64,000 nucleotides of DNA, taken from assembly GCF_016065055.1 (NCBI RefSeq), contig NZ_CP065856.1, positions 3,409,836-3,473,835 of the forward strand. Direction: 5' to 3'. The notes beneath the pieces are model-generated. The model did no database searches, was not told where the DNA came from, and saw only the letters and a program-made list of their open reading frames with translations. The first letter of the stretch is position 1. Every line of letters starts with the position of its first letter. The DNA comes from Halosimplex litoreum. GTDB taxonomy: Archaea > Halobacteriota > Halobacteria > Halobacteriales > Haloarculaceae. The translations under genes were made by a program, and so were the position numbers. Shown here piece after piece: positions 2,610-61,363 of the stretch.

Positions 2610-3236
2610 ATGCAACGACGGACGGTCCTGCGCGGGCTGGCTGCCCTCGCGGCGGGGGCGGGCGCGGGCTGTACGGCCGACGGCGAGGTGCCGGCGACGG
2701 CACCCGAACCACCCGAGGGGATCGCCACTCCCGAGGAGGGCGGCGACGGTGGAGATAGGGGGGGCGGTGGCGACGACGGCGACGCCGAACCGACGCCCGA
2801 CCAGCAGCGGTTCGTCGTCCCAGGGCGGACGTTCCGGTCCGACGAGAACGGCGACCTAGTGGTCGAAGTGACCGTCCGCAATCGCGTCGGCGTCGCTCAC
2901 GAGGCGGTGATGACCGTGACCGTCGAGGCCGGCGACAGGACTTTCTCCCCGTCTCGACACGTCGTCCTCCAGCCCCAGGCCAGCGGCCTGTTCGAGATCC
3001 GCTTCCCTATCACGGAAGGCCAACTGACCGGTTTCGCCATCTCTTTCGACTCCGGTCCACCCGAGACGCCGATCCCCGACGGGACCGTGACGCCCTACCC
3101 AGAAGACAGGGTGGCTACCGAAACCGGAACACGGACCGACCGGGTAGACCGAACGGCGACGGACCCGAGTGCGTCCGCGACGGCGGTCGCCGCGTCGACT
3201 GACTCCACCGGATCGACCGCGAGTTCGAGCGAGTAG
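2610..3236 (+). CDS. Tat-exported lipoprotein, FxLYD-like domain
   Basis: A 208-residue secreted lipoprotein. The N-terminus has a twin-arginine motif (QRRTVLRGLAAL) followed by a short Ala/Gly core and a lipobox ending in AGAGC, so it is probably exported folded by Tat and anchored through Cys21. After a Gly/Asp-rich linker, residues about 70-155 form one beta-rich domain (VEVTVRNRVGVAHEAVMTVTV) that resembles FxLYD/CARDB-type adhesion domains. The C-terminal 50 residues are Thr/Ser/Asp rich and likely O-glycosylated. It faces the P450 gene tail to tail. No ligand can be inferred. Confidence 0.75.
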   Translation: MQRRTVLRGLAALAAGAGAGCTADGEVPATAPEPPEGIATPEEGGDGGDRGGGGDDGDAEPTPDQQRFVVPGRTFRSDENGDLVVEVTVRNRVGVAHEAVMTVTVEAGDRTFSPSRHVVLQPQASGLFEIRFPITEGQLTGFAISFDSGPPETPIPDGTVTPYPEDRVATETGTRTDRVDRTATDPSASATAVAASTDSTGSTASSSE

Positions 3237-3296
3237 CCGAGTTCGCGGGCCAGGGGTGTGGCGCGCGCCGCGGACGCTCGGTCGTAGCGACCCGCT

Positions 3297-4535: not shown

Positions 4536-4656
4536 ACCTGTGCTTCGAGTGCGACCGTGCTAAACCCTCCGCCGGGTCGGGTCCAGTTCGCACGTAGACC
4601 GGCGGTACGTGGCCTGTTCGCGGCGCAAATGGGCACGCTTCCGGAAGTGTGAGCCG

Positions 4657-6048
4657 TCACCGCCGCCGTCGCGCCACCCGTTCCTCCGCGGTCTCCTCGG
4701 TCACGATCTCGTACAGTAGCGCCCGCTGGCCGAGAGGCGCCACAGCCGCCTCTCGAGCCTCCGAGTCCGCGGACTCGGAGACGCCGGCCTTCGGACGCAA
4801 GATCCGCCCGAGCCGCTGGGTGAACTCCCGCTCGCTCCCGCTGCCCGAGAGGACGACCGCGACGTTGGCGTCGGGCACGTCGACCCCCTCGTCGAGGACG
4901 TTCGCCGTCACGACCCGCGAGTACTCGCCCGAGCGGAACCGCTCCAGTATCTCTCGGCGCTCGTTCGCACTGGTCTCGTGAGTGATCGCCGGGATCAGGA
5001 ACCGCTCGGAGAGGCGATAGACGAGGTCGGTGTGGGCAGTGAAGACGATGATCCGGTCGTCTCGGTGGCGGTCGAGCAGCGTTTCGAGCCGGTCGACCTT
5101 CGCGTCGGCGTTCATCATCACCTCGCGGGCGCGCTGTTTGGCCAGCAGCGCCTCTCGCGCCCGGGGGTCGCTCCCGGAGCGCTTGACGAGCTCCTGGTAG
5201 TCGCTGCCGCTTCGCATCTGGATGCCCGACGTGGCGAGGTAGTCGGTGAACGTCTCCTGGTGGCGTTCGTACACGTCGCGTTCCTCGGGCGTCAGCTCGA
5301 CTTCCAGACGCTTGATGTCGTAGTCGGCGAGGTGTTCGCCGGCGAGTTCGTCGACGGCGACGCGGTGGACGAGCGGCCCGACGAGCGCTTCGACCGCCTC
5401 GTGGGCACCGTCGGGGCGCTCGAACGTCGCGGTCAGGCCAATCCGGGCGGGCGCGGCGAACAGGCGGGCGATGTCGCGGTAGCCCTCGCCGCCGAGGTGG
5501 TGGACCTCGTCGAAGACGACGAGGCCGAACCGGTCGCCGAGTTCGTCCGCCCGGAGGTACGCCGAGTCGTACGTCGACACCGTCACGTCGGCGAGTCGTT
5601 GCTCCCCGCCGCCCAGCTGGCCTACCTCGCGGCCGAACTCCCGTTCGAGTTCGCGGCGCCACTGTTCGAGCAGGTCGATGGTCGGGACGACGACGAGCGT
5701 CGGCGCCTCGATGGCTTCCATCGCCGCGATACCGACGACGGTCTTGCCGCTTCCCGTGGGGAGTTCGAGTACCCCTCGCCGGTCGGCGCCTTCCCAGTCG
5801 TCGAGCGCGTCGCGCTGGTACTCGCGGAGTTCGTACGTCGAGTCGAGCGAGAGGGGCGGCAGGTCGAACACACGGTCCTCGTAGGCGATTCCGCGTTCCT
5901 CCAGCGCAGCGAGGAGGTCGACGTAGCGGTAGGCAGGCGCTCGACCGGTCTTCGAGCGGGCGTCCCGTTCGACGAACGGCAGGTCCCCGAGCGCGTCGCT
6001 CCCGGTGATCCGGACGGTGCCCTCCTCGTAGACGAGCCGGACGGTCAC
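4657..6048 (-). CDS. XPB/Rad25-type DNA helicase
   Basis: A superfamily 2 helicase of 463 residues, the archaeal XPB that pairs with Bax1 to unwind DNA. An N-terminal damage-recognition-like domain precedes Walker A (PTGSGKTVVG, about residue 95), the DEVH box (VVFDEVHHLG, about 177), LTATFERPDG, and the C-terminal RecA domain with VFTAHTDLVY and motif VI QRLGRILRP (about 408). I chose the GTG at 6048 because the sequence before it is not conserved-looking. Directly after motif VI lies a Ser/Glu/Ala-rich insert coded by two palindromic hairpins (4731-4780), discussed separately. It is divergent from grpE. Confidence 0.93.
   Translation of the reverse strand: MTVRLVYEEGTVRITGSDALGDLPFVERDARSKTGRAPAYRYVDLLAALEERGIAYEDRVFDLPPLSLDSTYELREYQRDALDDWEGADRRGVLELPTGSGKTVVGIAAMEAIEAPTLVVVPTIDLLEQWRRELEREFGREVGQLGGGEQRLADVTVSTYDSAYLRADELGDRFGLVVFDEVHHLGGEGYRDIARLFAAPARIGLTATFERPDGAHEAVEALVGPLVHRVAVDELAGEHLADYDIKRLEVELTPEERDVYERHQETFTDYLATSGIQMRSGSDYQELVKRSGSDPRAREALLAKQRAREVMMNADAKVDRLETLLDRHRDDRIIVFTAHTDLVYRLSERFLIPAITHETSANERREILERFRSGEYSRVVTANVLDEGVDVPDANVAVVLSGSGSEREFTQRLGRILRPKAGVSESADSEAREAAVAPLGQRALLYEIVTEETAEERVARRRR
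4731..4780. repeat. Two adjacent palindromes inside the XPB gene
   Basis: Inverted repeat one has 9-bp perfect arms, 4731-4739 (CGAGAGGCG) and 4747-4755, with a 7-nt spacer. Repeat two, 4759-4780, is a perfect 22-bp palindrome. Together they encode the insert AGVSESADSEAREAAVAPLG after helicase motif VI. The frame is kept and the gene continues into a normal C-terminus (RALLYEIVTEETAEERVARR). Confidence 0.85.
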
Positions 6049-6188
6049 TGTCCCGGGATACCGCTCCCCGGGAGTTAAGCGGTGCGGGCCGCGGTCGCCC
6101 GGCCGGTGTCCGTCGCGAAGGCGGAGCGGCCGACCCGTCGTCGGTCGGATTCTCAACCCTTTTGTCGCCGCGGCGACTGGCTTGGGAT

Positions 6189-6905
6189 ATGAGCGAGCAG
6201 GACGCGTCCGACCCCGCTGAGGCCGCAGACGAGCAGCCAGGCGCGACCGCGCAGGAGGGGGGCGCGAGCGACGACCCCGTCCGGCCCGACGAGGTCATCG
6301 ACGCCGAGGAGGCGGGCGACGGCGACGCCCACGGCGAAGCGACGGTCGACGGCGCGGTCGACGTCGACGAGGAGCTAGTCGACCGGGTCGCCGAGTCCGA
6401 CCCCGAGTCGGTCGCCCACGAGCTCGCGGCGCTGCGGACGCGCGTCGACGGTCTGGAGGACCAGCTCGACGCGCGTGAAGAGGAGCTCGACGACCTGACC
6501 GACAAGCTCAAGCGCAAGCAGGCGGAGTTCCAGAACTTCAAGAAGCGGATGGAGAAACGGCGCGAGGAGGAACGCGAGCGGGCGACCGAGGACCTGGTCA
6601 CTCGCCTGCTGGACGTGCGGGACAACCTCCGGCGCGCGCTCGAACAGGACGAGGACGCCGACATCCGCGGCGGCGTCGAATCGACGCTGCGGTCGTTCGA
6701 CGACGTGTTCGACGCGGAGAACGTCGACGTGGTCGAACCCGAGCCGGGCGAGGACGTGGACCCGCACCGCCACGAGGTGCTCGTCCGCGTCGACTCGGAC
6801 CAGCCCGAAGACGCCATCGCCGAGGTCCATCGCCCGGGCTACGTCATGGCCGACAAGGTGATCCGCGAGGCGCAGGTCACCGTCAGCGACGGACCCGCCG
6901 AGTGA
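6189..6905 (+). CDS. grpE: GrpE, nucleotide exchange factor for DnaK
   Basis: This 238-residue protein releases ADP from DnaK. The first 65 residues are acidic and disordered, as usual in haloarchaea. Residues about 75-130 form the long dimerising coiled coil (LRTRVDGLEDQLDAREEELD, LKRKQAEFQNFKKRMEKR), followed by the four-helix part and a beta domain ending in VIREAQVTVSDGPAE. The start ATG at 6189 sits 25 nt after the box CCCTTTTG, consistent with a leaderless transcript. It precedes dnaK by 207 bp, in the usual order. Confidence 0.96.
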   Translation: MSEQDASDPAEAADEQPGATAQEGGASDDPVRPDEVIDAEEAGDGDAHGEATVDGAVDVDEELVDRVAESDPESVAHELAALRTRVDGLEDQLDAREEELDDLTDKLKRKQAEFQNFKKRMEKRREEERERATEDLVTRLLDVRDNLRRALEQDEDADIRGGVESTLRSFDDVFDAENVDVVEPEPGEDVDPHRHEVLVRVDSDQPEDAIAEVHRPGYVMADKVIREAQVTVSDGPAE

Positions 6906-46630: not shown

Positions 46631-47821
46631 TCACTCGTCGGTCGACCGCGGTTCCGCTCCGTCTCCGGTCGGGGAGTCGTCGGCCGACACCTCGCCGTTC
46701 GACTGCGCCGACCCCGTTCCCGGACCGTCGACGGGTGCGAGCGCGCCACTTTCGCCGTCGTCCGGGCGGAACTCGTAGCGTGTCGCACCGTCGAGGACGA
46801 CGAAGGTCCCCGAGTCGGTGTCTTCGATGACGCGGCGCTCGGAGTCGATGGCCACGTCGACCAGCCCCGTCAGCGAGTCGACGGTGACGACGCGGTCGTC
46901 GCCGGCCGGTGGGACCCGACCCGTCGAGATCCACTCCCCGAAGGAGTCGCGCTCGCGGGCGAGCGCCATCGTTTCCCGCGTCTCCGAGTCCACGTCGAGT
47001 CGGCCGGTACGGTCGAGCGCCGCGACGAGCACCGCGCCGACGAGTCCGACGACGAGCGCGAGGGCCCCGCCGTAGCGGGCCAGCGGGTCCGGGTCGACGG
47101 GAACGGTCACCTGCTCGGTGACTGGTTCGTTCCGCTGGCCCGCGGTCGTGGTCGTGACGCTGTAGGAGTCGCCCCGCGGCGTCACTTCGAGCGTCGCCGT
47201 CCGGTCGCCCTCGAACGTCTCGCCGGCCGCGGTCGCCGAGACCGTCGTGTCGGCGACCAGCCGGACCTGGACGTCCCCGCGCGAGGAGCCGAGTTCCTCC
47301 CGGACCTGCTCGGCCAGCTCCGACTGGGCCGTGACGTTGAACTCGTAGGGGACCGCGAACTCGCGCCCGGGCGCCAGCGACTCGGTGCGTTCGGATGCCA
47401 CCCGCTCGCTCACCCGCCAGAGGACGCTCTCGCCCTCGCCGGCCTCGACGGCGCGGACGACGAGTCGGAGGTCGGTTCGCACGGTCGCGGGGTCGGCGTC
47501 ACCACTGTGGCGGAAGACGTAACTGCCGTTGAGCGTCGGTGTCACCGACGAGAAGTACACCGAGCGGTTGCGCAGGACCGCACCAGCGTCGAAGGCGCGC
47601 GTGTCCCGTTGGACGACCGCGCCGTGCCGGAGTTCGTCGTCGGCCGTCCACGTTGTGACGGTTCGCTCCTCGGTCGTCGTGTCCGGACCGGTGAACGACT
47701 GGTAGGCGACAAAGCCGCCGGCGGCGGCTAACAGAAGACAGCCCAACACGACGACTCTCGGGTTGGCATTAAGATACGCGCGAACCCGGAAAACTGCGGA
47801 ATACTCCTCTCGTTGCGCCAC
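46631..47821 (-). CDS. DUF5305 membrane protein
   Basis: A 396-residue protein with one membrane segment near the N-terminus (about residues 18-41, VVVLGCLLLAAAGGFVAYQS), an extracellular beta-rich domain of about 230 residues, and a second membrane segment (YGGALALVVGLVGAVLVAAL). It ends in a cytoplasmic region of about 120 residues (FGEWISTGRVPPAGDDRVVT, RYEFRPDDGES). It matches the haloarchaeal DUF5305 family, often found beside signal peptidase I genes, as here. It begins at GTG 47821, 129 bp after the exported bactofilin-like gene. Confidence 0.78.
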   Translation of the reverse strand: MAQREEYSAVFRVRAYLNANPRVVVLGCLLLAAAGGFVAYQSFTGPDTTTEERTVTTWTADDELRHGAVVQRDTRAFDAGAVLRNRSVYFSSVTPTLNGSYVFRHSGDADPATVRTDLRLVVRAVEAGEGESVLWRVSERVASERTESLAPGREFAVPYEFNVTAQSELAEQVREELGSSRGDVQVRLVADTTVSATAAGETFEGDRTATLEVTPRGDSYSVTTTTAGQRNEPVTEQVTVPVDPDPLARYGGALALVVGLVGAVLVAALDRTGRLDVDSETRETMALARERDSFGEWISTGRVPPAGDDRVVTVDSLTGLVDVAIDSERRVIEDTDSGTFVVLDGATRYEFRPDDGESGALAPVDGPGTGSAQSNGEVSADDSPTGDGAEPRSTDE

Positions 47822-47950
47822 GATATTTCGTATTCTATGCAGACTACAAAAATAGCGGGGGTAGATGTCGCGGGACTTCCCTGCGAGCGTCGTGGCGTGG
47901 AAGATCGATCTACGATATTCGGGTCGAAGATCCAAGAATCGATCGGCGTG

Positions 47951-48853
47951 TCAGCAACTGACGTTGGAGACGTTCTCCGAGATGCGGCTCTCGGGTACTT
48001 TCGAGCCGTTGTCCTGTACCGACTGGTTAGCGACCACTTCGCCGGTAACCCTGGCGTTTTTTTCCAGTGTGACCGATCCGTTCTTCGAACGGACTGAACC
48101 GTTGACCCTGACGTTTTTACCGACGACGATATCGCTACTGGCGCATATGTCTCCGTTGATGGTCGTACTCCCTGGGCCGGTGAGTGTGACAATTCCCCCG
48201 GCGTCGATGCTCCCGTTGACAGTCCCGTTTTTGCCCACCGAAACACTTCCGTTTGCGGAAACATCTCCGTTCTGCGTCGAGTTCTTCGTCACATCAACAC
48301 TTCCACTGGTGTCGATGTTTCCGTTCTCTTTTCCGTCGACGACGACATCACTCGACTCACAGGAGATCGGGAACGCGGATGTGGTCACTCGTTCCGCGTC
48401 GATCGACGCGTTGTCTGCTGTCGCAGAAAATTGGAGGCGGACACGGTAGGAGTCTCCGAGACTGTCGGTCGTCGAATTACACCGGAGCCGTACACCGAAC
48501 TGGTCGGCCCCGCCGACCGTCTCGTCGATACTCGCTGTCAACGGGGGGTTCTGAACGACCGTTCCGTCCGACTGGGTAACCCGGACCATCGTAACAGACA
48601 GGTTGCCCTCCAAGATCCCCCCAACGTTGTCGATCAGTTCGAACAGGACGGTCGAGTCATCGCTATCGGTGATCTCCGCCGACCCGGATTCATCGGCAAT
48701 CCCCAACAGCGCTGTCTCGTCCTGATCTGCGATATTAACGGCGACACCCCGACTGGCCTCGACGGACGTGAACGCCGACGAGCCGAGCCCCATCGCGAGC
48801 GCACCGCTCCCGAGACAGGCCAGCGCCGCCCGCCGCGTCAACTTCTCACCCAT
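47951..48853 (-). CDS. Exported SipW-type protein with bactofilin-like C-terminus
   Basis: A 300-residue secreted protein. The N-terminus carries KLTRRAALACLG and a SipW-type signal peptide (GLGSSAFTSVEASRGVAVNI), followed by a DUF1102-like beta domain (about 35-165). From about residue 168 to 290 runs a series of short hexad-like repeats (VSVGKNGTVNGSIDAGGIV, IVVGKNVRVNGSVRSKNGSV, VTLEKNARVTGEVVANQSV), the pattern of a polymer-forming bactofilin beta-helix. Bactofilins are normally cytoplasmic; an exported form is unusual. It is divergent from a similar signal-peptide protein. Confidence 0.78.
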   Translation of the reverse strand: MGEKLTRRAALACLGSGALAMGLGSSAFTSVEASRGVAVNIADQDETALLGIADESGSAEITDSDDSTVLFELIDNVGGILEGNLSVTMVRVTQSDGTVVQNPPLTASIDETVGGADQFGVRLRCNSTTDSLGDSYRVRLQFSATADNASIDAERVTTSAFPISCESSDVVVDGKENGNIDTSGSVDVTKNSTQNGDVSANGSVSVGKNGTVNGSIDAGGIVTLTGPGSTTINGDICASSDIVVGKNVRVNGSVRSKNGSVTLEKNARVTGEVVANQSVQDNGSKVPESRISENVSNVSC

Positions 48854-49114
48854 GCTGTCACCCTATCGACCGCCCACCGATCGCAAAACGGCATCGGGCC
48901 CACGACCGATACCGTTCGGCTGTTACACGTCAATAGAGTTGTTGATGGATAAATGCTTTTCGTTGCCGGTTGAATTCGAAATGCCGTAGTACGGTGTGTA
49001 TAGGCCCTTTCGGGCGTTATCTCGTTCTGAAACAGCCTCTCTGAGGCACAAACTATTTATCTGAGAACAATATGGTATGTAGTAACCACCGTTCAGGTGG
49101 GTGTGTGTGAAACG
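48854..49114. other. A/T-rich divergent promoter region with hairpins
   Basis: The 261-bp gap is strikingly richer in A/T than neighbouring sequence. It has three small inverted repeats: GGCCC/GGGC near 49002-49015, GCCTC/GAGGC near 49033-49045, and CCACC (49086-49090)/GGTGG (49096-49100). A likely plus-strand promoter element is AACTATTTATCTG near 49051. The last hairpin is 15 bp before the ATG at 49115 and could occlude the start. Confidence 0.5.
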
Positions 49115-49660
49115 ATGAAAATGAATCGGCGGCAAGCACTGATAGGTATCGGGTCACTGGCTGTGGGTAGCGGCGCCGCGCTGGGGAGCGGGGCGTTTAC
49201 GAGCGTCGAGGCGAACCGATCGGTTGACGTCTCAGTCGCCTCAGACAGTAGCGCTCTGCTTGGGATCTCTCCGAGTGGACCGTACGCCGAGGACAGTAGT
49301 TCCTCTGACGAAGCAGTTACACTAAGCATCGGTTCTGCTGGAAGTAACGCCGATGGGATCAACGACGATGCGATAACCAATCTTGGCGATGTGCTGACGT
49401 TGACGAACCAGGGCGACTCAAGTGAGGGCGCTGTCAGTGTCTCGTTCCAGAATGAATCGAGCGGCACAGTCGCAGTCGAGATCACTGGGAACGATGTGGA
49501 CACTGTCATCGAACTATCGTTCGATTCCAACGTTGACGAGTCCAGTTTGTCTGCAGGAAGCGGTGTCGACGTAATCGCGACGGTGAATACTGGCTCACAA
49601 GCAGACGTCTCGAATGCTGACACAGAGGACTCGGTTACCATCGTCGCGAACTCGGTCTAG
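49115..49660 (+). CDS. Exported SipW-type substrate (DUF1102-like)
   Basis: A secreted 181-residue protein. MNRRQALIGIGSLAVGSGAA followed by LGSGAFTSVEANRSVDVSVA is a SipW-type signal peptide. The mature part (SSALLGISPSG, DVLTLTNQGDSSEGAVSVSF) is a Ser/Asp/Thr-rich beta domain akin to the N-terminal half of the divergent bactofilin-like protein, so the two are paralogues. There is no membrane anchor. Codon use is less G+C biased than in neighbouring genes. I chose ATG 49115; ATG 49121 is the alternative. Confidence 0.8.
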   Translation: MKMNRRQALIGIGSLAVGSGAALGSGAFTSVEANRSVDVSVASDSSALLGISPSGPYAEDSSSSDEAVTLSIGSAGSNADGINDDAITNLGDVLTLTNQGDSSEGAVSVSFQNESSGTVAVEITGNDVDTVIELSFDSNVDESSLSAGSGVDVIATVNTGSQADVSNADTEDSVTIVANSV

Positions 49661-49813
49661 CGCCCGAGCCACGACAGCCTATCGCCTCTTGGCATCGACA
49701 GCGAAGGTCAGCAGTTCCCTCACTCCCTGAGGGCCATAGCTACAGTATACAGAATCACCAGGGCCGAGGGACTCAAACGACCGAAAGTAAGAATTCAGAG
49801 TAGTTCGATATAT

Positions 49814-51292
49814 GTGAGATATTTGGTCCGGATCTCCGCGGCTGCTGTGCTCTGTTTAGGATTTGCTCTCGGAACCGGCGCGTTCACCAGCGGCGACCAG
49901 GTCGTCGACGGTGTCTTTCTCAACCCAGCCAACTCCGAGAACGGCGACGCCTACGCCGAACTCAACGATGAGAGACAGCTCCGCGTCGAACTGACGAACC
50001 TCAACCCCCAGGCGATAACGACGGTCGACGACGTGTTCACGATATCGACGACGAACCACGGGAGTCGCGTCTGGATCGAACACGACGCGGACCAAGACGT
50101 GACGTTCTACCGCTCGGACACAGGTGACTCCATCGGGAGCCAGAACGAGCAGATCACTCTGAGCGAGAACGAGACGGTTCCGGTCGGACTGCGGGTTGAC
50201 GCCGAGAGCGAGACGGTCGTGCTGAGTCGGATCACCGTCCGTGCCGAGATCAGACCGACGGCGACCGCCGGCCCGACGGCCGCTCCGACCACGACCGTCT
50301 CGGCCGGGCCGGGCCCGTCCACGCCGTCGCCGACACCCGACCCGACGCCGGTCCCGACAGCGCCGCCAACGACAACCGCGACCCCGGCGCAACCGACGAG
50401 CACCCAGGCGCCGACCACGGCTCCGGTGACCACGGCGGCGCCGACACCCGCCACGCCGACGGCCGCTCCGGGGACTACGACCGCGCCCGGGACGACGACC
50501 ACACCGACGACCAGTCCGACGGACGACGGTCCGACGGCCACCGAAGACAGCGGTTCGACGCCCGACGGGACGACGGCACCGCCGACGACCGCTCCGCAGA
50601 CCACGAGTCCGCCGTCGACGACCGCGCCGGCCATGACGGCCCCACCGGACGACGGGTCGTCGACTCAGACGGCATCGACGCCGACGGCCGAGTCCGACGA
50701 CGAAGCGCCGACCGCCTCCGTACCAACGACCGCGCCGCCGCAGGACGATCCCGGAACGAGCGTCGCCCCCGGCGTGACGGTGTCGACCCCCGACGACGGC
50801 GACACGGAGATCGGCGGGTTCTCGCCGGTCCAGCTGGGCGGTGCCGTCGCCGCGCTGGCCGCGCTCGCGCTCGGACTCCTCGCCTGGGGCCTGCTCGGCT
50901 CGTCGTCGGCGCTCGTCCTCGTGGCCGACGCCGGAGACGGGCTGGCAGTCCGCCCGCAGTCGCTCACCGACGACTGGTACGACACGCGCGAGGACGGCTT
51001 CGCGTTCCGGTTCGCAGAGACCGACACCTGGGTCGAGGCCGCGGGCGACGGCCCCGTCACCTTCGAGCGAGCGGTGACCGTCACCAACACCGGCGATGAG
51101 CCCGCGCGGGTCACCGTCCCCGACGCCGAGTCGCTCTCCGGCGTCGGGCTCTCAGCCGACGGCGTCGACCTGACCGCCGACGGGTTCGTCCTCGACGGCG
51201 GCGAGAGTGCCGACCTGACCCTCGAACTCCCCGCCGACTTCGACCCCGACGGGGAAGTCACACTCCGGTTCCGACGGTCTCCGCTCGACTGA
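49814..51292 (+). CDS. SipW-type exported protein with Thr/Pro stalk and C-terminal anchor
   Basis: A 492-residue surface protein starting at GTG 49814. The signal peptide (RYLVRISAAAVLCLGFALGT, then GAFTSGDQVVDGVF) precedes a DUF1102-like beta domain (about 30-150). Residues about 155-330 form a Thr/Pro/Ala/Ser-rich stalk, probably O-glycosylated. A membrane helix (VQLGGAVAALAALALGLLAW) follows, and then a final 120-residue beta domain (VTFERAVTVTNTGDEPARVT). The last domain would lie on the other side of the membrane unless the helix is re-entrant. Confidence 0.8.
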   Translation: MRYLVRISAAAVLCLGFALGTGAFTSGDQVVDGVFLNPANSENGDAYAELNDERQLRVELTNLNPQAITTVDDVFTISTTNHGSRVWIEHDADQDVTFYRSDTGDSIGSQNEQITLSENETVPVGLRVDAESETVVLSRITVRAEIRPTATAGPTAAPTTTVSAGPGPSTPSPTPDPTPVPTAPPTTTATPAQPTSTQAPTTAPVTTAAPTPATPTAAPGTTTAPGTTTTPTTSPTDDGPTATEDSGSTPDGTTAPPTTAPQTTSPPSTTAPAMTAPPDDGSSTQTASTPTAESDDEAPTASVPTTAPPQDDPGTSVAPGVTVSTPDDGDTEIGGFSPVQLGGAVAALAALALGLLAWGLLGSSSALVLVADAGDGLAVRPQSLTDDWYDTREDGFAFRFAETDTWVEAAGDGPVTFERAVTVTNTGDEPARVTVPDAESLSGVGLSADGVDLTADGFVLDGGESADLTLELPADFDPDGEVTLRFRRSPLD

Positions 51293-51444
51293 TCTCGGTC
51301 GATATCGTTCTCGATTTTCGGACTATATCTAAAATGGGTGTATATGCCCAATAGTGAGCTCTTTGAACACTTCGGCCGCGCTGAGTATCGCTTGTGATAC
51401 TGTTGCCGTGTAGCTTTACAACGGCTCGGTCGAAGGGTCGGTCA

Positions 51445-52341
51445 GTGAGCGATCCGACGTCGGTGCGCCGGTCGAGCGCCCTGCGACTGCCGAGGGGAGT
51501 CGCCGAGCGAACGCGGTGGCTCGATCTCCTGGCGTTGCTGGCGGTTCCGCTCGTGCTGGTCGCGGTCTTCGAACTACCGGAGACGCTCCGGCGGTCGCTG
51601 GCTTTCGAGTACACCGACCCCTCGATCACGGCCGCGTTCGTCTCCGCGTACGTCCACGTCGGTCCGGCGCACTTGTTGACTAACGTAGGTGGCTACCTGC
51701 TCGTCGTGCCGACGGCGTACCTGCTGAGCGTCGCCAGCGGCCATCGACGCCGCTTCTTCCTGGCGTTCGCTACCTTCCTCGTCGCGTTCCCGCCGGTGCT
51801 GTCGTATCTCAACCTCGCCGCCGTCCGGACGGCGAGCGGGCTGGGCTTTTCGGGCGTCCTGCTGGCGTTCGTCGGCTATCTCGCCTACGCCATCGCCGAA
51901 CACCTCCAGGTGAACCTCCGGATCGGGCCGACGACCTCGGTCGCTCCGACGCTGTTCTTCCTCGGGTTCGCCGTCGCGGCACCGCTGAGCGTTCGGTCGG
52001 TCACCGTCGACCGCGCGACCGTCGCGCTCGGGACCGGCGGACTCGTCCTCGCGACGCTGCTGTCGGCGCTGCTGTTCGCGCTATCGGCCGCCGACGAGTC
52101 CGGATCGCTGCGGCGTCGACTGCGACTCGCGACCGCTCGCCGCGGCTCGTTCGAACTCGGCGTCCTCTCGCTCGGACTGTTCCTCGCCTTCCAGTTCGTC
52201 GCCTTCCCCCCGCGACCGACGGCCGGCCCGGGAACGGTCAACCTCTACACGCACCTGCTCGGCTACGCGCTCGGATTCATGGTCACCTACGTCAGCGTCC
52301 AGCTGTTCGCCCGTCTGGACGCCGGTCGGCCTGCACGATGA
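51445..52341 (+). CDS. Rhomboid-type intramembrane serine protease
   Basis: A 298-residue multi-pass membrane protein. It has the rhomboid motifs: HLLTN (His76-xxx-Asn80), G-x-S-G in GLGFSGVLL (Ser136) and the catalytic His in YTHLLGYALGF (His270). Six or more hydrophobic helices are present. The distance from Ser to His (134 residues) is longer than in GlpG because extra helices intervene, so this is a divergent member. I chose GTG 51445. It lies between SipW-type substrates and the signal peptidase. Confidence 0.75.
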   Translation: MSDPTSVRRSSALRLPRGVAERTRWLDLLALLAVPLVLVAVFELPETLRRSLAFEYTDPSITAAFVSAYVHVGPAHLLTNVGGYLLVVPTAYLLSVASGHRRRFFLAFATFLVAFPPVLSYLNLAAVRTASGLGFSGVLLAFVGYLAYAIAEHLQVNLRIGPTTSVAPTLFFLGFAVAAPLSVRSVTVDRATVALGTGGLVLATLLSALLFALSAADESGSLRRRLRLATARRGSFELGVLSLGLFLAFQFVAFPPRPTAGPGTVNLYTHLLGYALGFMVTYVSVQLFARLDAGRPAR

Positions 52342-52422
52342 CCCGGGTCCTGGAGCGCTAGCCGTGAGGAATCACCGCCCAAAGGCCCGGCCGGGACGCT
52401 TAAACCCGACCGTTCCCGATCG

Positions 52423-53580
52423 ATGAGCGTGACGCTCCGGGCCTACGCTGCACGCGCGTTCGAGGTGGCACTCGTGGTCGCGCTCGTCGCGCTGGTCGCC
52501 GGAGCGGTCGTCGGCCAGCCCGTCCTCCTGAGTTTCGTCGAGACGGGCAGTATGGAGCCGACCATCGACACCGGCGACGGGTTCGTCGCCGTGCCGTCGG
52601 TCCTCGCCGGCCCGCCCAGCGAGGGCGACGTCGTCGTCTTCCGCGCCCAGGAATTGCAGGGCGGCGGACTGACGACCCACCGCATCGTCGGCGAGACCGA
52701 CCGCGGCTACGTCACCCGCGGCGACGCGAACCCGTTCACCGACCAGGACGGCGGCGAGCCGCCGGTCACCGAGGACCGGATCGTCGCCCACGCGCTGCAG
52801 GTCGGCGGGGACGTCGTCGTGATCCCGTTCCTCGGGACGGCGATCGTGGGCGTGCAGGACGCGATGATCGGCCTGCAGAACGCGATCGCAACGTCGGTCG
52901 GCGTCGACGCCTTCCTCGGACCGCAAGGTGTCGGACTGGTACTGTTCGGCGTCGGGATCGCGCTCTTCGGGCTCTCCGCAGTGCTCGGCCGAGTCGAAGG
53001 ACCCTCGCGTGACCGCCGTCGGGACCGCTCGCGCGGCGGCGGCCTCGACGCACGACGAGCGACGCTCGTCCTGCTCGTGGTCGTCCTGTTGCCGGCCAAC
53101 GCTGCGATGGTCGTCCCCAGCGGCGTCCACGAGATGACCGTCGACGGAGACACGATCGCCACGGCCGAGGATATCGCGCCGGGAGAACAGGCCTCCTGGG
53201 AGTACACGGTCCGCAACAGCGGGTTCGTCCCGGTGGTGGTCGTCTTCGAGTCGACCGACCCCGAAGTCTCGATCCCCCAGTACCGTCGGGCGCTCGGTCC
53301 CGGTGGCACCCGCGAGCTGTCGATCGGCGTGACGGCGCCACCGCCGGGCGAGACCCGCACCGGAACTGTCCGCGAGTACCGGTACCTGCTCGTCCTGCCG
53401 CCCGCGGTGATCGAAACGCTCCACGATAGCGGCCCGGTGGTCGCCTGGAGTGTGATCAACGCCGTCCTCGCCGGTGGACTCCTCTTGCTCGTCTCGAAAA
53501 CGGTCGGCTTCGGCCGCGTCCGCACGGGCGCGGCCAGCCGGGTCTCCCTGTGGGTCCGCCTGCGCCGGCGGTTCGGGTGA
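52423..53580 (+). CDS. SipW-like signal peptidase I with extracellular C-terminal domain
   Basis: A 385-residue S26 signal peptidase. The catalytic Ser43 is in VETGSMEPTIDTGDGFV and the general base is His86 in LTTHRIVGE, the Ser-His type of archaea, ER and SipW rather than Ser-Lys. GDANPFTDQD (about 101-110) is the conserved Asp region. After a membrane segment at about 165-188, the chain continues through a second helix into a beta-sandwich-like domain (about 225-330) and a last helix (VINAVLAGGLLLLVSK). This added half is not part of a normal peptidase. A GCTTAAACC box lies about 20 nt upstream. Confidence 0.87.
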   Translation: MSVTLRAYAARAFEVALVVALVALVAGAVVGQPVLLSFVETGSMEPTIDTGDGFVAVPSVLAGPPSEGDVVVFRAQELQGGGLTTHRIVGETDRGYVTRGDANPFTDQDGGEPPVTEDRIVAHALQVGGDVVVIPFLGTAIVGVQDAMIGLQNAIATSVGVDAFLGPQGVGLVLFGVGIALFGLSAVLGRVEGPSRDRRRDRSRGGGLDARRATLVLLVVVLLPANAAMVVPSGVHEMTVDGDTIATAEDIAPGEQASWEYTVRNSGFVPVVVVFESTDPEVSIPQYRRALGPGGTRELSIGVTAPPPGETRTGTVREYRYLLVLPPAVIETLHDSGPVVAWSVINAVLAGGLLLLVSKTVGFGRVRTGAASRVSLWVRLRRRFG

Positions 53581-53622
53581 GAAGATCGACTCGACGGGTC
53601 GGTCGGACCGCCGAGTCGCCGT

Positions 53623-55671
53623 TCAGGCCAGCCACTCCTCGGGCTTGGTGTCGTAGTCGATGTCGTCGGCGGCGAGGTGCTCGACGGCGTCCCAGGGGAG
53701 TTCCTCGATCGTGACCTCGTCGCCGTCGTAGCGGATCAGCCGGCCCACTTCCTCGGGTTCGGGCTCCCGATCCCGTCGTTTCGCGACCTCCACGTCGTGT
53801 TCGTCGAACTCCTTGACGATGGTCTTGAGGTTGACGGGCCGACCCCAGAGTTCGAACACGCGTTTCAGGGTGTCCTCGGCCTGCCCGAGGTCGAGCATGA
53901 CGCCGTTGTACTGGTGGGCCAGCAGGAGTTCGTTGCGGTTGTTGTAGTTGCCGTCCTCGACGACGACGGTCGGCTTGCCGAAGTTGGTGAACTGCAACAT
54001 TAGCTTCTTTTTCACGTCGGTGTAGTCCGTCGAGGTGACCCGGTAGTCGCCGGTCGACTGGGTGTACTCGTAGGTGAAGTACTCGTTCTCGTCGACGAAC
54101 TCCTGGGTGAGGAACTCGTCGAGGAAGGTCACGTCGTTGTGGGACTCGCGGATCTCCCGCATGCGGTCCCAGCCGCGGGCGTAGTCGACATCGGCGAGAG
54201 CGTCCTCGACGGAGCCGTACCGCGAGTCGTCGAACATGTATCGCGAGACCCGTTCGAGTTCCTCCTGACTGACCCGCGAGAGGAACCCGCGGTTCTGTGG
54301 CTTGGTCAGCGAGTAGTGTCGTTCGGCCAGCCCCTCGTAGGTCAGCACCTTCCAGGGGTAGGTCTCGACGTCGATCTCGCCAGCCCGGCTCGCGGGCTCC
54401 CCGCTCGCTCGTTCGGAGTCGCTGTGCGCCTCCCGCGCCGCTTCGAGCGCCCCGGCGTCGACCCGCGGGTCCTCGGGGTCCAACTCGTCGAGGTGTTCGA
54501 CTACGGAGGCCATCTCGGCGTCGGGTTCGACCAGTTCGAGCACCCGCTCGAAGTCGACGGTGTCGTGGAAGTTACGCCAGGTGACGCCGTCGACGCGGAG
54601 CAGGCGCTCGACGATCTCGCGGCGGTTCGTCGTGTTCTCGACGTAGTTCCAGATCTCCAGGCCGAGTTTGTAGGGGTTGAGCCCGGACGACCCGAGCACC
54701 TTCGCCATGTGGTCGGCGTAGAGGACGAACTCGTCGTCGCCGGCGAAGGTCTCGCCGGTCATCATCGCCGACTCCCAGTAGGCGGCCCACCCCTCGTTCA
54801 TCACCTTCGTCATCTTCTGGGGGGCGAAGTAGTACGCCTCCCGGCGGAGCATCTCCAGCACCTCTTTCTGCCAGTCGGCCATCTCCGTGGCTTTGGCGGC
54901 GTCGCCGTCGTACTGCATGCCGTGCTTGCGGAGGAACCCGAGCACGTCTTTCTCCGGTTGGGCCGGGAACGTGGCGCCCTCCTCCTCGTCGGTCTGGGCC
55001 TCCAGCCACTCCTCGGTGAAGACCTGCCCTTTGACCTCCTCGGAGAGGTCGAGCTCTTCGAGCTGTTCGGCCACGTCGGCGGTGTCGTGCTCGTCGATGA
55101 GGTCGATCCGCGTGTCGATCGGCTCGTAAGGGACGTGCTGGTCGATGTTGTCCTCCAGCGTGAGGACGTGGTCGACCCACTTCTCGACCTCGCCGCGGTC
55201 GATCTCGGGGTCGGTCATGAACCCCTCGATGGCGTCGGCGTGACGCGCGAGCATCGCCGCGGCGTTGGGTCTCTCGGCGAACATGCCGAACCACTCGTTG
55301 TTCGCGAAGAAGTCGGCGTGGGCCTCGACGTGGGTGATCACCGCCTTCTGGTCCGCGAGGGTGTTCGACTCCTGGAGGAAGGCGTGGGAGGGGTCGTCGT
55401 TGTTGACGATCTCGAAGGCCTTCCCGCCGAGGAACTGCCCCTGTTTCTGCTGGCGGTCGTACTGCATGCCCCAGCGCCAGTGGGGGTACCGCTGCTGGAA
55501 CCCGCCGTAGGCGATGAGTTCGTTCATCTCGTCGTAGTCGACGATCCAGTAGTTCACCTCGTAGGGGTCCAGTCCGAACTTGCGGGCGAGTTCGTTCGCT
55601 TCGTCGACCGGCTCTTCGAGGTCCGCGGCGATGCGCTGGGCCTCGATCCGGTCGCTCATCGGTCTGCTCAT
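53623..55671 (-). CDS. SpoVR family protein (YcgB-like)
   Basis: A 682-residue cytoplasmic SpoVR protein of unknown biochemical activity. Family signatures include [47 protein letters not shown] and [15 protein letters not shown] Ser/Glu/Ala-rich low-complexity insert near 54390-54430 ([16 protein letters not shown]) interrupts the middle. It overlaps the upstream yeaH-like gene by 4 bp (ATGA) and ends a four-gene operon. SpoVR is linked in bacteria to stress and spore coat formation. Confidence 0.92.
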
Positions 55672-56978
55672 TGTGAGTCGTCCTCCGTGCTGAGGATGTC
55701 GTAGATAGCGTCGACCACGTCGTCCGGCCCGGAGACGTAGGCGACTGCCACGTCGTCGGCGTCGCGGAAGCTGCGCTCGACCTCCTCGGCGTGGGTCGCG
55801 TTGATCGCGTTCCCGCTCGGCTGGGTCTCCACGTACGCGTGGAGGTTCGCCGGGATCTGCTCCATCAGTGGGACGACGTGCTCTTCGGTGTCGTTGCTGG
55901 AGTTCTCGGAGTCGCCCGCCGCGAAGACGTAGCGGTTCCACTCGCTCCAGGGGTACTCCTCCAGCAGCTCGGCGGCCAGGTCGTACGCGCTGGAGATGCG
56001 GGTGCCGCCACCGGAGCGGATGCCGAAGAACTCGTCGCGCTCGACCTCCCAGGCGTCGGCGTCGTGGGCGATGTAGACGAACTCGGCGTTGTCGTACTTG
56101 CCCTGGAGGTACCAGTCGAGGGGGGTGAACGTCCGCTCGACCAGTTCCCGTTTCTTCTGGCGCATCGACCCGGACACGTCGCGGATGTTGACGACGACGA
56201 CGTTCTTCTCGCGCTCCTCGACGATCTCGGGGTAGCGGTAGCGCTCGTCCTCCCGGCGGAAGGGCACCTCGTCGATGCCCTCCCGGCGGATGCGCTGGGC
56301 GGTGTCGACCCGTTCGGTCTCGGCGTCCATCTCCTCGAAGCTCGCCCACGTCGTCCGTTCGTCGCTCGGTATCTCGTCGTAGGCCTCGTCGATCCAGGCC
56401 CGGGAGACAGGCATGTTCTCGCCGCGGGCCCACTCGAACACCTTCGCGGGGCCCCAGCCGTCGATCTTCAGCGCCTCGCGGACGTAGTCCCGGTCGAAGT
56501 CCATCGCGAGCTTGCGCTTGAGCCCTTGCTTGAACAGCCGCTCGAAGTCCAGCGTCGAGGTCGGGCCCGAGCGGGTGATGTCCGTGAAGTCGCCCTCGGT
56601 CTCCTCGATGACCTTCTTGCCTTTCGGTTCCAGGTCGAGCCCGAGCTGTTCGTCTAACTCCTGGGCGAACTCCTCGGGGTCCATCTCGTAGTACTCGTGC
56701 TCGCCGCCCTCCTCACCGGGGTCGCCGTCCTCGTCGCCGTCGTCGCCCGGCTGGGGCTCGGCGTCGACGGGGTCGCCTTCCTCGGCGTCGCCCTGGCCGA
56801 CCCCGCCCTGGTCGCGCCGGTCGTAGGCGAACTCCGGGAGGTCGACGATCTTGATCGGGACCCGCACCGAATCGGGGCGGCTCTGGCCCAGGTCGCCGTA
56901 CTGGATGAACTCCGAGAGGTCCTGTCGGCGGTCCTCGCCGACTTCGCGGTAGCGTTCGAGGTCGTCTCTCAGTCCCAT
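55668..56978 (-). CDS. YeaH/YhbH family protein (DUF444) with VWA domain
   Basis: A 436-residue protein. The N-terminal 110 residues end in an acidic Gly/Asp-rich linker; the C-terminal VWA-like domain carries a MIDAS-type motif [20 protein letters not shown] (about residue 263). YeaH is encoded with PrkA kinase (YeaG) and SpoVR (YcgB) in bacteria, and the same order is kept here. It starts 34 bp after the prkA2 stop. Its partners and the target of the module are not known. Confidence 0.92.
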
Positions 56979-57012
56979 CCGTCGCTCACCTCGGGTCTCG
57001 GTTCAGTGGCTA

Positions 57013-59295
57013 TCAGTCCCATTTGTAACTCACCTGGCTCATGACGTGGCGGCTGGTCAGCTCGGCCGACGCCTCACTGTAGTCGTACATCTCCTGCATG
57101 TTCCGGACGGTCTCGTCCTTCAGGTTGGCAGTCTCCGTACCACTGGGCGGTTCGTCCCACTGGCGGGGGTCGAAGTCCTCGTAGGTCCGTTTCACGTCGT
57201 CCCACGAGTGGCTGCCCAACACCGTCTGGATCACCGGGATCTCCTTGGGCGAGACGTCCGCGACCCTGAACTCCTCGTCGCGGCGCTGCCAGGCGTGGCG
57301 GTTGAGGGCGGTGATGATCTTGTCCTCGCGGAACGCCTCGACGGCGTCGTCGGGTCGGTTCCCGGCGTAGTTGCTCTCGTCGAAGCGACCGAGGTGCTCG
57401 ACCTCGAAGACCTTCATCTTCAGCGGGTCGGGGTCGACGTACTCGCCGCGGTCGTTCTCGATCTGCTCGTCGGTCGACCACGCGTAGACGTGCTCGATGT
57501 ACTCCTCGACCGTCGCCTCGTCGACGCGCTTGTCTCGCATCATCGCGTCGAGCACGTCCGACTCCTGCTCGCCGAAGACGTGGTTTTTCACCGGCACCAC
57601 GCGCTCCTCGAAGTCGGCCGCCTCGGCGTTCGAGAAGACCGGCGCCGTCGACAGGTCCTCGGCCATCGCGTTGAGGATGTCACGGGGCATGACGACGTGC
57701 TCGACCGGCAGGTCCCCGTGGTGGCGGTCCTGCTCACGATGGAACAGGTCGGCGATCTCGTCGCGCGTGTACGTGACGGGGATCCCGTGGTCGCCGTCGG
57801 TGCCCCCCTCGGTGAACTCGAACTCGTCTGCCTCGACGCGCTCGTCGCCCTCCCGGAGGTAGCCGCGGTCGAAGAGGAGGGCTTTGTCGACCAGGTCGTG
57901 GCCGCTGGGCACGTCGCTCACGTCGAGCCTGGTGACGACCGCGTATAGCGCTGCGGCCTCCAGGGCGTGGGGCGCCAGTTCCTTCGCGTTGATCTCGTCG
58001 TGTTCGTCGCGGACCCGCACCGTCAGGGGCTCCTGGATCCACTCCTCGAGTTCGCCCCACGACTCGGCGTCCCACACCTCCGTCTCGTCGGTCAGCTCCC
58101 GTCGCAGGAGCTCGGTCTCCAGCGAGAGGTTGGTCAGGTAGGTAAACTCGTGTTTGTCGAGGCGGCGCTTGAGTGCCTTCAGCGGGTCCTGACCCTCGCG
58201 GTCGGCGTGCTGGTTGAGCTGGGCCTCCAGGTCGGGGTTGGAGATGATGACCATCTGGGTGTCGATGTCCATCCCGATGCCCTTGTCCAGCTTCACCGAC
58301 TTCTCGTCGGGGACGTTCAGCAGCTTCTGCAGCAGGTCGGCGTGCTGGGCGGCGTCCTCGACCACGGTGAGCAGGCCGTTGCCCTGCGAGAGCACGCCGT
58401 CGTAGGAGAAGGCCTGCGGGTTCTTCCGGCCGCGGGAGTCCAGCTCCTGGAGCATGCCGCGCATCCACGAGCCGACCAGCCGCTCTTTGGGCGGGCCCTC
58501 GTCCTCGGAGTGGAGGACGCCGATGCCCCGGCCCACGTCGACGACGTAGTTCTTGACGCGGAGGTGCTGGGGGTCGGTGATCGCCGAGAACAGCTCCGTG
58601 ACGCCCTGCCGCCGGTAGTGTTCTTCCAGGTAGTCGTAGGCCTCCCGGCAGAACGGGTCGAGTTCGCCCTCGACGCGGACTGGGATGTGGTCGTCGGTGT
58701 TCTCGTTGAGCCGGGCGACCAGGTCCTCGCGAACGTCCTGGGGGAACACCGAGAGGGGATGGGACTGGACGGGGCTCTCGTACCAGTCGTCCTCGTCTGC
58801 GACCGGCTCGTCGGCGTAGGTCAGCCCGGCCGAGTCGCCGCTGGTTCCGGCGACGTTCCACTCGACGGTGTACCGGCGGCCCTCGTCGGTCTTCGAGTAC
58901 TCGCGCAGGCCGTTGATGAGACAGCGTTTGAGTTCGGACTTGCCCGTGGCCGTGGGGCCGTCGAGCCAGACGATCTTCTCGTCTTTGCCCCGGCCGGCGG
59001 CGATCGACCGCAGGTCGTCGACGAAGGCGTTGAGAACCTCGGTGTTACCGAGGATGGCGTGTTCCCCGTCGTTGTGCGGGTCGTCGAAGAAGCGATAGCG
59101 CTCCTTCCCCTCGCCCTCCTCGATTACCGTCCGAGTACCCGCCGCTTCGATGGCGCTGAGGAGGTACTTCGAGGCGTGGGCGGCCAGGGCCGGGCGCTCG
59201 AGCACGAGGTCGACGTACTCGGCGAGGCTCCGCGGCGCCTCGTAGGTCCGGTCGAGCGAGGCGTCGGCCTCGCCGATGAAGTCGTTGCCGCTCAT
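57013..59295 (-). CDS. prkA: PrkA-type AAA+ protein kinase, copy 2
   Basis: A 760-residue member of the PrkA family, a Ser/Thr kinase fused behind an AAA+ domain. The Walker A is WLDGPTATGKSELKRCLING (P-loop about 113-120), and FFDDPHNDGEHAILGN is the conserved N-terminal motif. The sensor region GMDIDTQMVIISNPDLEAQ and the long helical C-terminal kinase-like part are present. Although the family is usual, it is clearly distant from its neighbour prkA1, so the pair is not a recent duplication. Start ATG 59295 is one base from the prkA1 stop. Confidence 0.93.
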   Translation of the reverse strand: MSGNDFIGEADASLDRTYEAPRSLAEYVDLVLERPALAAHASKYLLSAIEAAGTRTVIEEGEGKERYRFFDDPHNDGEHAILGNTEVLNAFVDDLRSIAAGRGKDEKIVWLDGPTATGKSELKRCLINGLREYSKTDEGRRYTVEWNVAGTSGDSAGLTYADEPVADEDDWYESPVQSHPLSVFPQDVREDLVARLNENTDDHIPVRVEGELDPFCREAYDYLEEHYRRQGVTELFSAITDPQHLRVKNYVVDVGRGIGVLHSEDEGPPKERLVGSWMRGMLQELDSRGRKNPQAFSYDGVLSQGNGLLTVVEDAAQHADLLQKLLNVPDEKSVKLDKGIGMDIDTQMVIISNPDLEAQLNQHADREGQDPLKALKRRLDKHEFTYLTNLSLETELLRRELTDETEVWDAESWGELEEWIQEPLTVRVRDEHDEINAKELAPHALEAAALYAVVTRLDVSDVPSGHDLVDKALLFDRGYLREGDERVEADEFEFTEGGTDGDHGIPVTYTRDEIADLFHREQDRHHGDLPVEHVVMPRDILNAMAEDLSTAPVFSNAEAADFEERVVPVKNHVFGEQESDVLDAMMRDKRVDEATVEEYIEHVYAWSTDEQIENDRGEYVDPDPLKMKVFEVEHLGRFDESNYAGNRPDDAVEAFREDKIITALNRHAWQRRDEEFRVADVSPKEIPVIQTVLGSHSWDDVKRTYEDFDPRQWDEPPSGTETANLKDETVRNMQEMYDYSEASAELTSRHVMSQVSYKWD

Positions 59296-59296
59296 G

Positions 59297-61363
59297 TCAC
59301 TCTTCCATCTCGCTCTTTGCGACCTCCGCACCGGCGAACTCTAGCACCTCCCGCGCACCCTCTTCGGAGTAGCCCTGTTCGATGAGCGCGTCGATCCACT
59401 GGTTGCGCTCGTCGTCGTCCATCTCGCCGCTCGACACGAGTGCCGAGAAGTTGATGTTGTGCTTCTTGTCCTCCCAGAGCTTCCGTTCGAGGGCGCGCCG
59501 CAGGCGGTCGTTGTCCTGCGGGTTGAACGTGTCTCCTTCGCGCGCGCGCCGGGAGACCCAGTTGCTCACTTCCTGGCGGAAGTCGTCTTTTCGATCCTCG
59601 GGTAGGTCCAGTTTCTCCTCGACACCCCGGAGGAACTGCTCGTCCGGTTCCTGCTCGCGGCCCGTGATCTCGTCTTCGACCGTGTCGTCGTCGATGTAGG
59701 CCATCACGTGGTCCATGTACTTCTCGCCCTGGCGCTGGATCTCGTCGACGTCGTAGGCCAGCGCGTGGCGCACGTCCTCGATGGCTCGCTCCTTGTACTC
59801 CTCGCGGACGAGTTCGAGGTAACGGTGGTAGGTCTCGAACCGGTCTTCTGGGATCGAGCCGTGGTTCTCGATGTTGGCTTCGAGGTGATTGAACGTGGTC
59901 AGCGGCGAGAGGAACTGCCGATCCCGGTGCATCGAGTCCATGATCGCCTCGGCGATCTCGTCGCCGATGAACCGCGGGGAGACCCCCTCCATCCCCTCGC
60001 CGATCTCGGCCTTCTCGGCGGCCTCGTCGCGGAGCTTCTTCACGTCGACGTCCTCGGCCTCGTCGATCTCGCCGTTGTAGGCCTTGGCCTTCTGGATCAG
60101 CGTGACGTTGCCCGTGTCGGGCTCTTCGATGCGGGTGAGCACGCCGAACAGGCCGGCCATCTGTAAGGTGTGGGGCTCGACGATGATGTCGGGAAGATCC
60201 GCGTTGTTCAGCATCTTCCGGTAGATCTTCGCCTCCTCCTCGTACTGGAGGACGTACGGGAAGTCGATCCGCTTGGTGCGGTCGTTGAACGCCTCCATCT
60301 TCTCGTCGCCCTTCTTGTCCTTGTACTCGGGCATGTTCGTCCGCCCGACGATCACCTGGTCGATGTCGATCCGGGGGTTGTTCTTCGGCTTGATCGTCTG
60401 TTCCTGGGTGGCGTGCAGGAAGTCGTAGAGGAACTCCCGCTGCAGCTTGAGCAGTTCCTCCCCGGAGAAGATACCGCGATTGGCGTTACAGAACGCCCCG
60501 GAGTAGTCGAACGCCCGGGGGTCCGATTCGCCGTAGACGGCGATCTTCGAGTAGTTCACGTCCCCCGTCAGCTCGGTTTCGTCCTGGTTTTTCTTGTCCT
60601 TGGGCTCGAACGTCTCGATGGCCTGGCGCATGTTCTCGTCGGCGACCAGGCGGACGATCTCGACGTGGTTCTCGAGGACCTGCTGGAGGTCGTCGTCGTA
60701 GTGAGCCAGCAGCCGGTCCATGTAGAACTCGCTGGCCGGATCGAGGGCTTGCTCGTTGCGGATCGTGTAGGGGGCCTCCAGCTCCTCGTTGATGTCTTCG
60801 ATGACCCGGTCGCGTTGCTCCTGGGGGAGCAACACGAGCGGGTCCTGGTCCATCGGGGAACGGACGGTGTCGTCGGCCGGATCCTGGTCACCGATTACGT
60901 CACAGAGGTTCGTCCACCGGAAGGTGTACATCCGCCCGGCGTCCGAGCGAGTGTAGTCCTCGTAGTAGCGACGCACCTGGCGGTCGAAGTCGGACTTGCC
61001 GGAGCCGACCGGGCCGAGGAGGAGTTTGATACGTTTCTGGGGGCCGAGCCCGCGCGCGCCAGATTTTACCTTGTTGACGAACTCGTGGATCGACTCGTGG
61101 ACGATCCGTCCGTAGAAGGTATTCTCACCGTCGTTGAGTGGGTCTTCCGAGGCGAGATCGTACTCGACGACGCCGGCGTCCTCGTCGTACTCGGTGCCGT
61201 AGTAGTCGAACATGTCGGCAACGCGCTGGTGGGCGTTGCGGGCTATCTTGGGCTCGTCGTAGAGCTGATCCAGGTACGCGTCGAACGACCTGTACTCGCG
61301 CAGGTCCGCCGGGATCGTGTCTCTGTACTCTTGGCTCAGCTCTTCGAGGGTTTCCTGTGTCAT
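59297..61363 (-). CDS. prkA: PrkA-type AAA+ protein kinase, copy 1
   Basis: A 688-residue PrkA protein. The N-terminal motif DPLNDGENTFYGRIVHE precedes Walker A (LLLGPVGSGKSDFDRQVRRY, P-loop 117-124). The YSGAFCNANRGIFSGEELLK and DIDQVIVGRTNMPEY stretches are typical, followed by a C-terminal kinase-like region. It is the first gene of the prkA1-prkA2-yeaH-spoVR operon. In Bacillus and enterics PrkA/YeaG is tied to stationary-phase and stress responses. Phosphorylation targets in archaea are unknown. Confidence 0.95.
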   Translation of the reverse strand: MTQETLEELSQEYRDTIPADLREYRSFDAYLDQLYDEPKIARNAHQRVADMFDYYGTEYDEDAGVVEYDLASEDPLNDGENTFYGRIVHESIHEFVNKVKSGARGLGPQKRIKLLLGPVGSGKSDFDRQVRRYYEDYTRSDAGRMYTFRWTNLCDVIGDQDPADDTVRSPMDQDPLVLLPQEQRDRVIEDINEELEAPYTIRNEQALDPASEFYMDRLLAHYDDDLQQVLENHVEIVRLVADENMRQAIETFEPKDKKNQDETELTGDVNYSKIAVYGESDPRAFDYSGAFCNANRGIFSGEELLKLQREFLYDFLHATQEQTIKPKNNPRIDIDQVIVGRTNMPEYKDKKGDEKMEAFNDRTKRIDFPYVLQYEEEAKIYRKMLNNADLPDIIVEPHTLQMAGLFGVLTRIEEPDTGNVTLIQKAKAYNGEIDEAEDVDVKKLRDEAAEKAEIGEGMEGVSPRFIGDEIAEAIMDSMHRDRQFLSPLTTFNHLEANIENHGSIPEDRFETYHRYLELVREEYKERAIEDVRHALAYDVDEIQRQGEKYMDHVMAYIDDDTVEDEITGREQEPDEQFLRGVEEKLDLPEDRKDDFRQEVSNWVSRRAREGDTFNPQDNDRLRRALERKLWEDKKHNINFSALVSSGEMDDDERNQWIDALIEQGYSEEGAREVLEFAGAEVAKSEMEE

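Follow-up and report, generated by a model that had tools for sequence, protein, structure and literature searches.

Tat-fimbriae (tafi) are thin surface appendages of haloarchaea that are exported by the Tat pathway and have TafA as their core component, as outlined in PMC12687288, which cites the original description (Galeva et al. 2025, iScience 28:111793; used here through that account). A second point of reference is the TasA/TapA/SipW biofilm-matrix system of Bacillus, to which a preliminary description, made from the DNA letters, had likened a six-gene cluster of Halosimplex litoreum. Here, we compare this cluster with both systems. It lies in a 64,000-nucleotide stretch of contig NZ_CP065856.1 (positions 3,409,836 to 3,473,835, forward strand), which is called the window below. 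All six open reading frames that had been listed, in two divergent groups, were located and have intact frames:

46631..47821, minus strand: gene A, DUF5305 membrane protein (396 aa; Pfam DUF5305, 3.5e-54)
47951..48853, minus strand: gene B, subunit in the TafC slot (300 aa; NCBIfam TafC 4e-09, Bactofilin above its cut-off)
48854..49114, no strand: divergent intergenic region between B and C, putative promoter region judged from its sequence
49115..49660 (open reading frame from 49097), plus strand: gene C, TafE-like pilin (~181 aa; NCBIfam TafE 1.4e-20)
49814..51292, plus strand: gene D, TafF-like protein (492 aa; NCBIfam TafF 6.7e-18)
51394..52341, plus strand: gene E, rhomboid-type intramembrane protease (invariant motifs; PF01694 in relatives)
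52423..53580, plus strand: gene F, SipW-like/archaeal signal peptidase (385 aa; TIGR02228 above its cut-off)
46631..53619, no strand: interval replaced exactly in the congener G209 (blastn junctions 46630 and 53620)

Comparison with Tat-fimbriae and TasA-type systems

Searches with the NCBIfam Taf models (NF052520-NF052523, for TafA/C/E/F) match C to TafE (73.7 bits, equivalog cut-off 155), B to TafC (36.1 bits, cut-off 410) and D to TafF (65 bits, cut-off 420), in each case under the cut-off. In Haloarcula argentinensis, four proteins of the corresponding locus (L122) exceed the TafF, TafE, TafA and TafC cut-offs, and these taf genes adjoin genes for DUF5305 and a SipW-like peptidase. The two loci share, in one cluster, DUF5305, a SipW-like peptidase, TafE-, TafC- and TafF-like proteins and Tat/SipW-type signals. 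They differ in that the window has no TafA, whereas Haloarcula has both TafA and TafE, in that the TafC slot carries a bactofilin-like solenoid in the window and LamG in Haloarcula, and in that a complete rhomboid gene lies inside the window's unit. A rhomboid gene is also present beside the H. argentinensis taf cluster (L122:810-1218), split into two short fragments that lie in different frames, which looks like a break or a frameshift. Judged by these profile matches, the window's cluster and the published tafi cluster are homologues, and the kind of system is already known; by the curated cut-offs the window holds a divergent form of tafi outside the TafA/C/E/F equivalog families, which we file as a tafi-like relative.

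No full-length match to TafA was found in the cluster, where the TafA model matches just the signal region of C, and a search of the genome with the C-family profile for a further subunit returned B, C and D alone. Two other candidates were set aside: a weak match, L005, is a wrong-frame Arg/Ser-rich open reading frame, and L007 is a Sec11-like peptidase. Since no TafA-like second subunit was detected in the genome, C is probably the main fibre subunit of the window variant. Roughly counted, 48 of 103 loci, L098 and L101 among them, have one detected small subunit.

The likening to a TasA/TapA-type system could not be sustained. No match to the TasA/camelysin family PF12389 was found in the genome, the homologues of the cluster are tafi, and the resemblance of C to TasA-type pilins is at the level of the fold only. 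The cluster is like the Bacillus system in having a dedicated SipW-type peptidase, an AF-type cleavage site and putative fibre-forming substrates, and unlike it in that the window holds no TasA-family protein, in its Tat signals and in its extra DUF5305, TafF-like and rhomboid parts.

Secreted proteins and their membrane partners

B, C and D each carry a SipW-type signal peptide, as first described, with the AFT motif; the twin-arginine motifs of B (TRRAAL) and C (NRRQAL) had been overlooked. The Tat/SipW-type signal peptides read TRRAAL...SSAFTSVEASR in B and MKMNRRQAL...GSGAFTSVEANR in C, where a beta-sandwich follows, while the signal peptide of D (GTGAFTSG) is without RR. The start of C is more likely the ATG at 49115 or 49121, directly 5' of NRRQAL, than the GTG at 49097. 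In 162 relatives of C from 112 loci, collected with a profile restricted to the mature part, the RR motif lies upstream in 153 (24 in a shuffled control), and 155 have A[FL], the motif seen at SipW-type sites. The peptidase and its probable substrates do sit together, as had been claimed, but the gene set is not self-contained, because B and C are predicted to be exported by Tat and the cluster has no Tat translocase gene.

Gene B joins a Taf N-terminal domain (the TafC match spans residues 1-157) to a C-terminal bactofilin-like beta-solenoid, the repeat domain noted earlier, which scores 42.2 bits on the Bactofilin model against a cut-off of 27.9. As B carries an export signal, the solenoid is predicted from sequence to lie outside the cell, and the same signal speaks against B as a cytosolic polymer-forming cytoskeletal protein in the bactofilin sense. 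A B-type solenoid fused to a similar N-terminal domain is found in Natronolimnohabitans (L164), the likeness running along the length of B. The C-terminal domain of the TafC slot is LamG in Haloarcula, a ricin-type lectin in Halomicrobium and the bactofilin-like solenoid in gene B; among 64 long SipW-type proteins surveyed, LamG occurs in 10 and ricin-type domains in 3. On the natural reading, B would be a minor or tip subunit, or an adhesin, with an exchangeable domain. Gene D has the Thr/Pro stalk and anchor ascribed to it, in the order N-terminal domain, Thr/Pro-rich stalk, late TM segment (~343-361, TM scan) and C-terminal domain, and is proposed as a base or anchor subunit.

The C-family profile matches a protein solved as 'Pilin' (PDB 9p0a, chain C) with E-values of 1.1e-36 when the signal is included and 3.2e-15 for the mature part; the mature part of the window's C alone gives no match to 9p0a, which is reached by the family profile only. 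In the fold list obtained for C (AlphaFold2 model, mean pLDDT 77) the Pyrobaculum bundling pili (7ueg) are at the top, with Z 7.7 over 108 residues, and the Sulfolobus threads (7pnb, Z 6.2 over 108 residues) and FimA-type pilins are near. Donor-strand pilins dominate this list, with all Z values below 8 and most alignments beginning past the N-terminal arm, and Foldseek E-values are weak (0.026 and above). The PDB sequence search gave no match of C to the Pyrobaculum bundling pili or the Sulfolobus threads, and the plasmid collection gave no match to gene C. With Z values below 8, the model supports C as a strand-donating pilin, short of proof, and the fold likeness may be only a common arrangement.

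Gene A is, as previously assigned, a DUF5305 membrane protein, and the sole DUF5305 copy in the genome. A TM segment (23-41) is followed by an extracellular beta-sandwich region (~45-245), a second TM segment (251-269) and a small cytosolic domain that carries invariant residues in the family alignment. The fold search (AlphaFold2 model, mean pLDDT 82) yielded only beta-sandwich matches of a general kind, at low TM-scores, from which no function for DUF5305 was read. Gene F is a SipW-like peptidase with its own extracellular domain, as described, and extra TM segments and a C-terminal beta domain are seen. It scores above the cut-off of the archaeal signal peptidase I model TIGR02228 (56.4 bits, cut-off 51.85) and far under that of the SipW equivalog model (32.2 bits, cut-off 190), and residues Ser43, His86 and Asp101/107/109 are invariant in 18 of 18 aligned proteins. 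We propose that B, C and D are processed by F as their dedicated peptidase. The second signal peptidase of the genome (L007, G000:C1 near 1975182) is Sec11-like, has a long N-terminal extension and is the probable housekeeping signal peptidase.

Gene E, whose actual start probably lies downstream of position 51394, is the anticipated rhomboid, with HxxxN, GFSG (Ser153) and His287 present. H93, N97, G151, S153, G154 and H287 are invariant in all 22 aligned E proteins, and PF01694 is matched by 14 of the 22 relatives and not by the window protein itself; comparison of E with solved structures gave no relevant match. A second protease is present in the unit, as had been noted, but it is accessory, since a rhomboid occurs in just 20 of the first 60 DUF5305 loci.

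Distribution and exchange of the locus

In a sample of 243 Halobacteriales genomes, with counts that ignore kinship, DUF5305 is found in 168 and the F-type peptidase in 163. The two occur together in 162 genomes, usually as neighbours, and one without the other in 7, such that F is present in 162 of the 168 genomes with DUF5305 against 1 of the 75 without. A single-sequence DUF5305 scan of the genome contigs gave no match, and the scan was redone with the peptidase alignment. The locus set around DUF5305 (60 fetched and the window, 61 in all) has F inside the fetched stretch in 56 loci, C-type proteins in 56 and the rhomboid in 20. All six genes are found together in Halomicrobium katesii and Halosimplex salinum, with the same order and orientation in H. 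salinum. The check on co-occurrence across haloarchaea suggested in the preliminary description hence finds a widely shared DUF5305/F pair and the six-gene unit in two named relatives. At two loci (L088 and L096), a single DUF5305/peptidase pair has between three and five large secreted proteins of SipW type around it, which suggests that one machinery serves several fibre or coat proteins.

In the Halobacteriales genome search, the congener G209 lacks DUF5305 and F. Its flanks have ~88% nucleotide identity to the window, where the blastn alignment ends at 46630 and restarts at 53620, and the six-gene interval is swapped for ~4 kb (L198, G209:C1:3695500-3704500, 2652-6694). This cassette encodes a TasA/camelysin-like PF12389 protein with a SipW-type signal, a small SipW-like peptidase (TIGR02228, 117 bits), a protein with a SipW signal and a repetitive, solenoid-like C-terminal part, and two further membrane open reading frames. 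It shares with the window the chromosomal slot and the presence of a peptidase, a solenoid-like protein with a SipW signal and a pilin-like protein; unlike the window, its pilin-like protein is a PF12389 camelysin-like one, its SipW-like peptidase is small and it has no DUF5305. Halosimplex salinum (L101) carries a tafi-type cluster at the same site, and its peptidase groups with Halomicrobium (98/93 support), excluding that of the window. Protein identity between the window and L101 is 81-91% in the flanks, 49-54% for A, E and F and 31-46% for B, C and D. The exact replacement in G209, the non-sister allele of H. salinum and the contrast in identity between flanks and cluster indicate, from three genomes, that the locus has been exchanged as a block at a fixed site among relatives. 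The exchange site is bordered on the right (53623-59331) by a spoVR/yeaH-like/prkA-like operon, which is syntenic in L101 (90-91% identity for the spoVR and prkA products) and, at least in part, in G209.

The low G+C of the central part, previously taken as a sign of acquisition, is real (B 59% and C 56% against ~67% locally, 8-11 points under the local mean). As evidence of recent acquisition it was rejected, since small subunit genes elsewhere are likewise below the local average (85% of 163 from other loci, with a mean gap of 6 points), and low G+C is a feature of the family; horizontal exchange is argued for by the G209 replacement and the non-sister alleles. Across the order, M73 and DUF5305 show at best a weak tendency to exclude each other (all matches, p=0.32; strong matches in 9 of 168 against 14 of 75 genomes, p=0.002, ignoring kinship), and this association alone is insufficient to establish exclusion.

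More speculatively, the site between a SOX-type oxidase gene and the spoVR/yeaH/prkA-like operon may be an exchange slot for whole surface-fibre systems, in which complete cassettes would swap, some for Tat/DUF5305 fimbriae from different lineages and one for a TasA/SipW-type fibre unrelated to them, and the tafi tip domains (LamG, ricin-type lectin, bactofilin-like solenoid) would also be exchanged. Such a serotype-like locus, driven by virus escape or partner choice, is an idea we advance tentatively and hold with slightly less than even confidence.

A putative Tat-exported fibre and its alternatives

We consider it likely that the cluster encodes a divergent tafi-type surface fibre. The surface filament apparatus envisaged in the preliminary description is borne out as to its peptidase, probable substrates and conserved unit, and its product is probably a filament. 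In our model, B and C would leave the cell by Tat via their twin-arginine signals and D by Sec, and peptidase F would cleave before AF to give a free N-terminal arm. The C subunits would then be linked as in pili of the TasA and FimA types, each giving its N-terminal strand to its neighbour. B would cap or decorate the fibre through its exchangeable binding domain, here the bactofilin-like solenoid, D would be the membrane anchor of the fibre and DUF5305 (A) is proposed as a membrane platform for assembly or anchoring. Rhomboid E would cleave or release a membrane-anchored member of the system, trimming or freeing the anchored part.

The same proteins could instead form a secreted, non-filamentous coat or matrix, in which processed B, C and D bind the S-layer or neighbouring cells unpolymerised. 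The Thr/Pro stalk of D is typical of cell-surface proteins, and the solenoid of B and the lectin-like domains of its relatives would suit such a role. We nevertheless regard a coat as unlikely, given that the C family includes a protein solved as 'Pilin', that polymerising pilins dominate the fold list for C and that, in the account of PMC12687288, homologous proteins are published as fimbriae. Decay to a relic tafi cluster, in which TafA is gone and fibre production has ceased, is very unlikely: the missing TafA-like second small subunit, in cluster and genome alike, where Haloarcula has TafA and TafE, is in its favour, but the six frames and the catalytic residues of peptidase and rhomboid are intact, and it is common for a cluster to have just one detected small subunit, at approximately 48 of 103 loci.

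A Bacillus-like TasA/TapA/SipW system proper is highly improbable. It would explain the SipW-like peptidase and SipW-type cleavage motif, as well as the resemblance in fold of C to TasA-type archaeal pili, yet the genome has no PF12389 match, F reaches 32 of the 190 bits asked by the SipW equivalog model, and B and C bear Tat-type signals. Moreover, DUF5305 matches none of 14 control genomes whereas the M73 family does match Bacillus subtilis, and it is a true TasA-type cassette that occupies the same site in G209.

The divergent tafi-type fibre remains our preferred reading, and the DUF5305 protein, the dedicated peptidase and the rhomboid are candidate parts of a route by which folded Tat substrates would be assembled. 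The spread of the DUF5305/peptidase pair suggests that tafi-type machinery is present in about two-thirds of the sampled Halobacteriales, and the swap between a tafi-type cluster and a TasA-type cassette would offer a natural experiment on whether two fibre systems serve one function.
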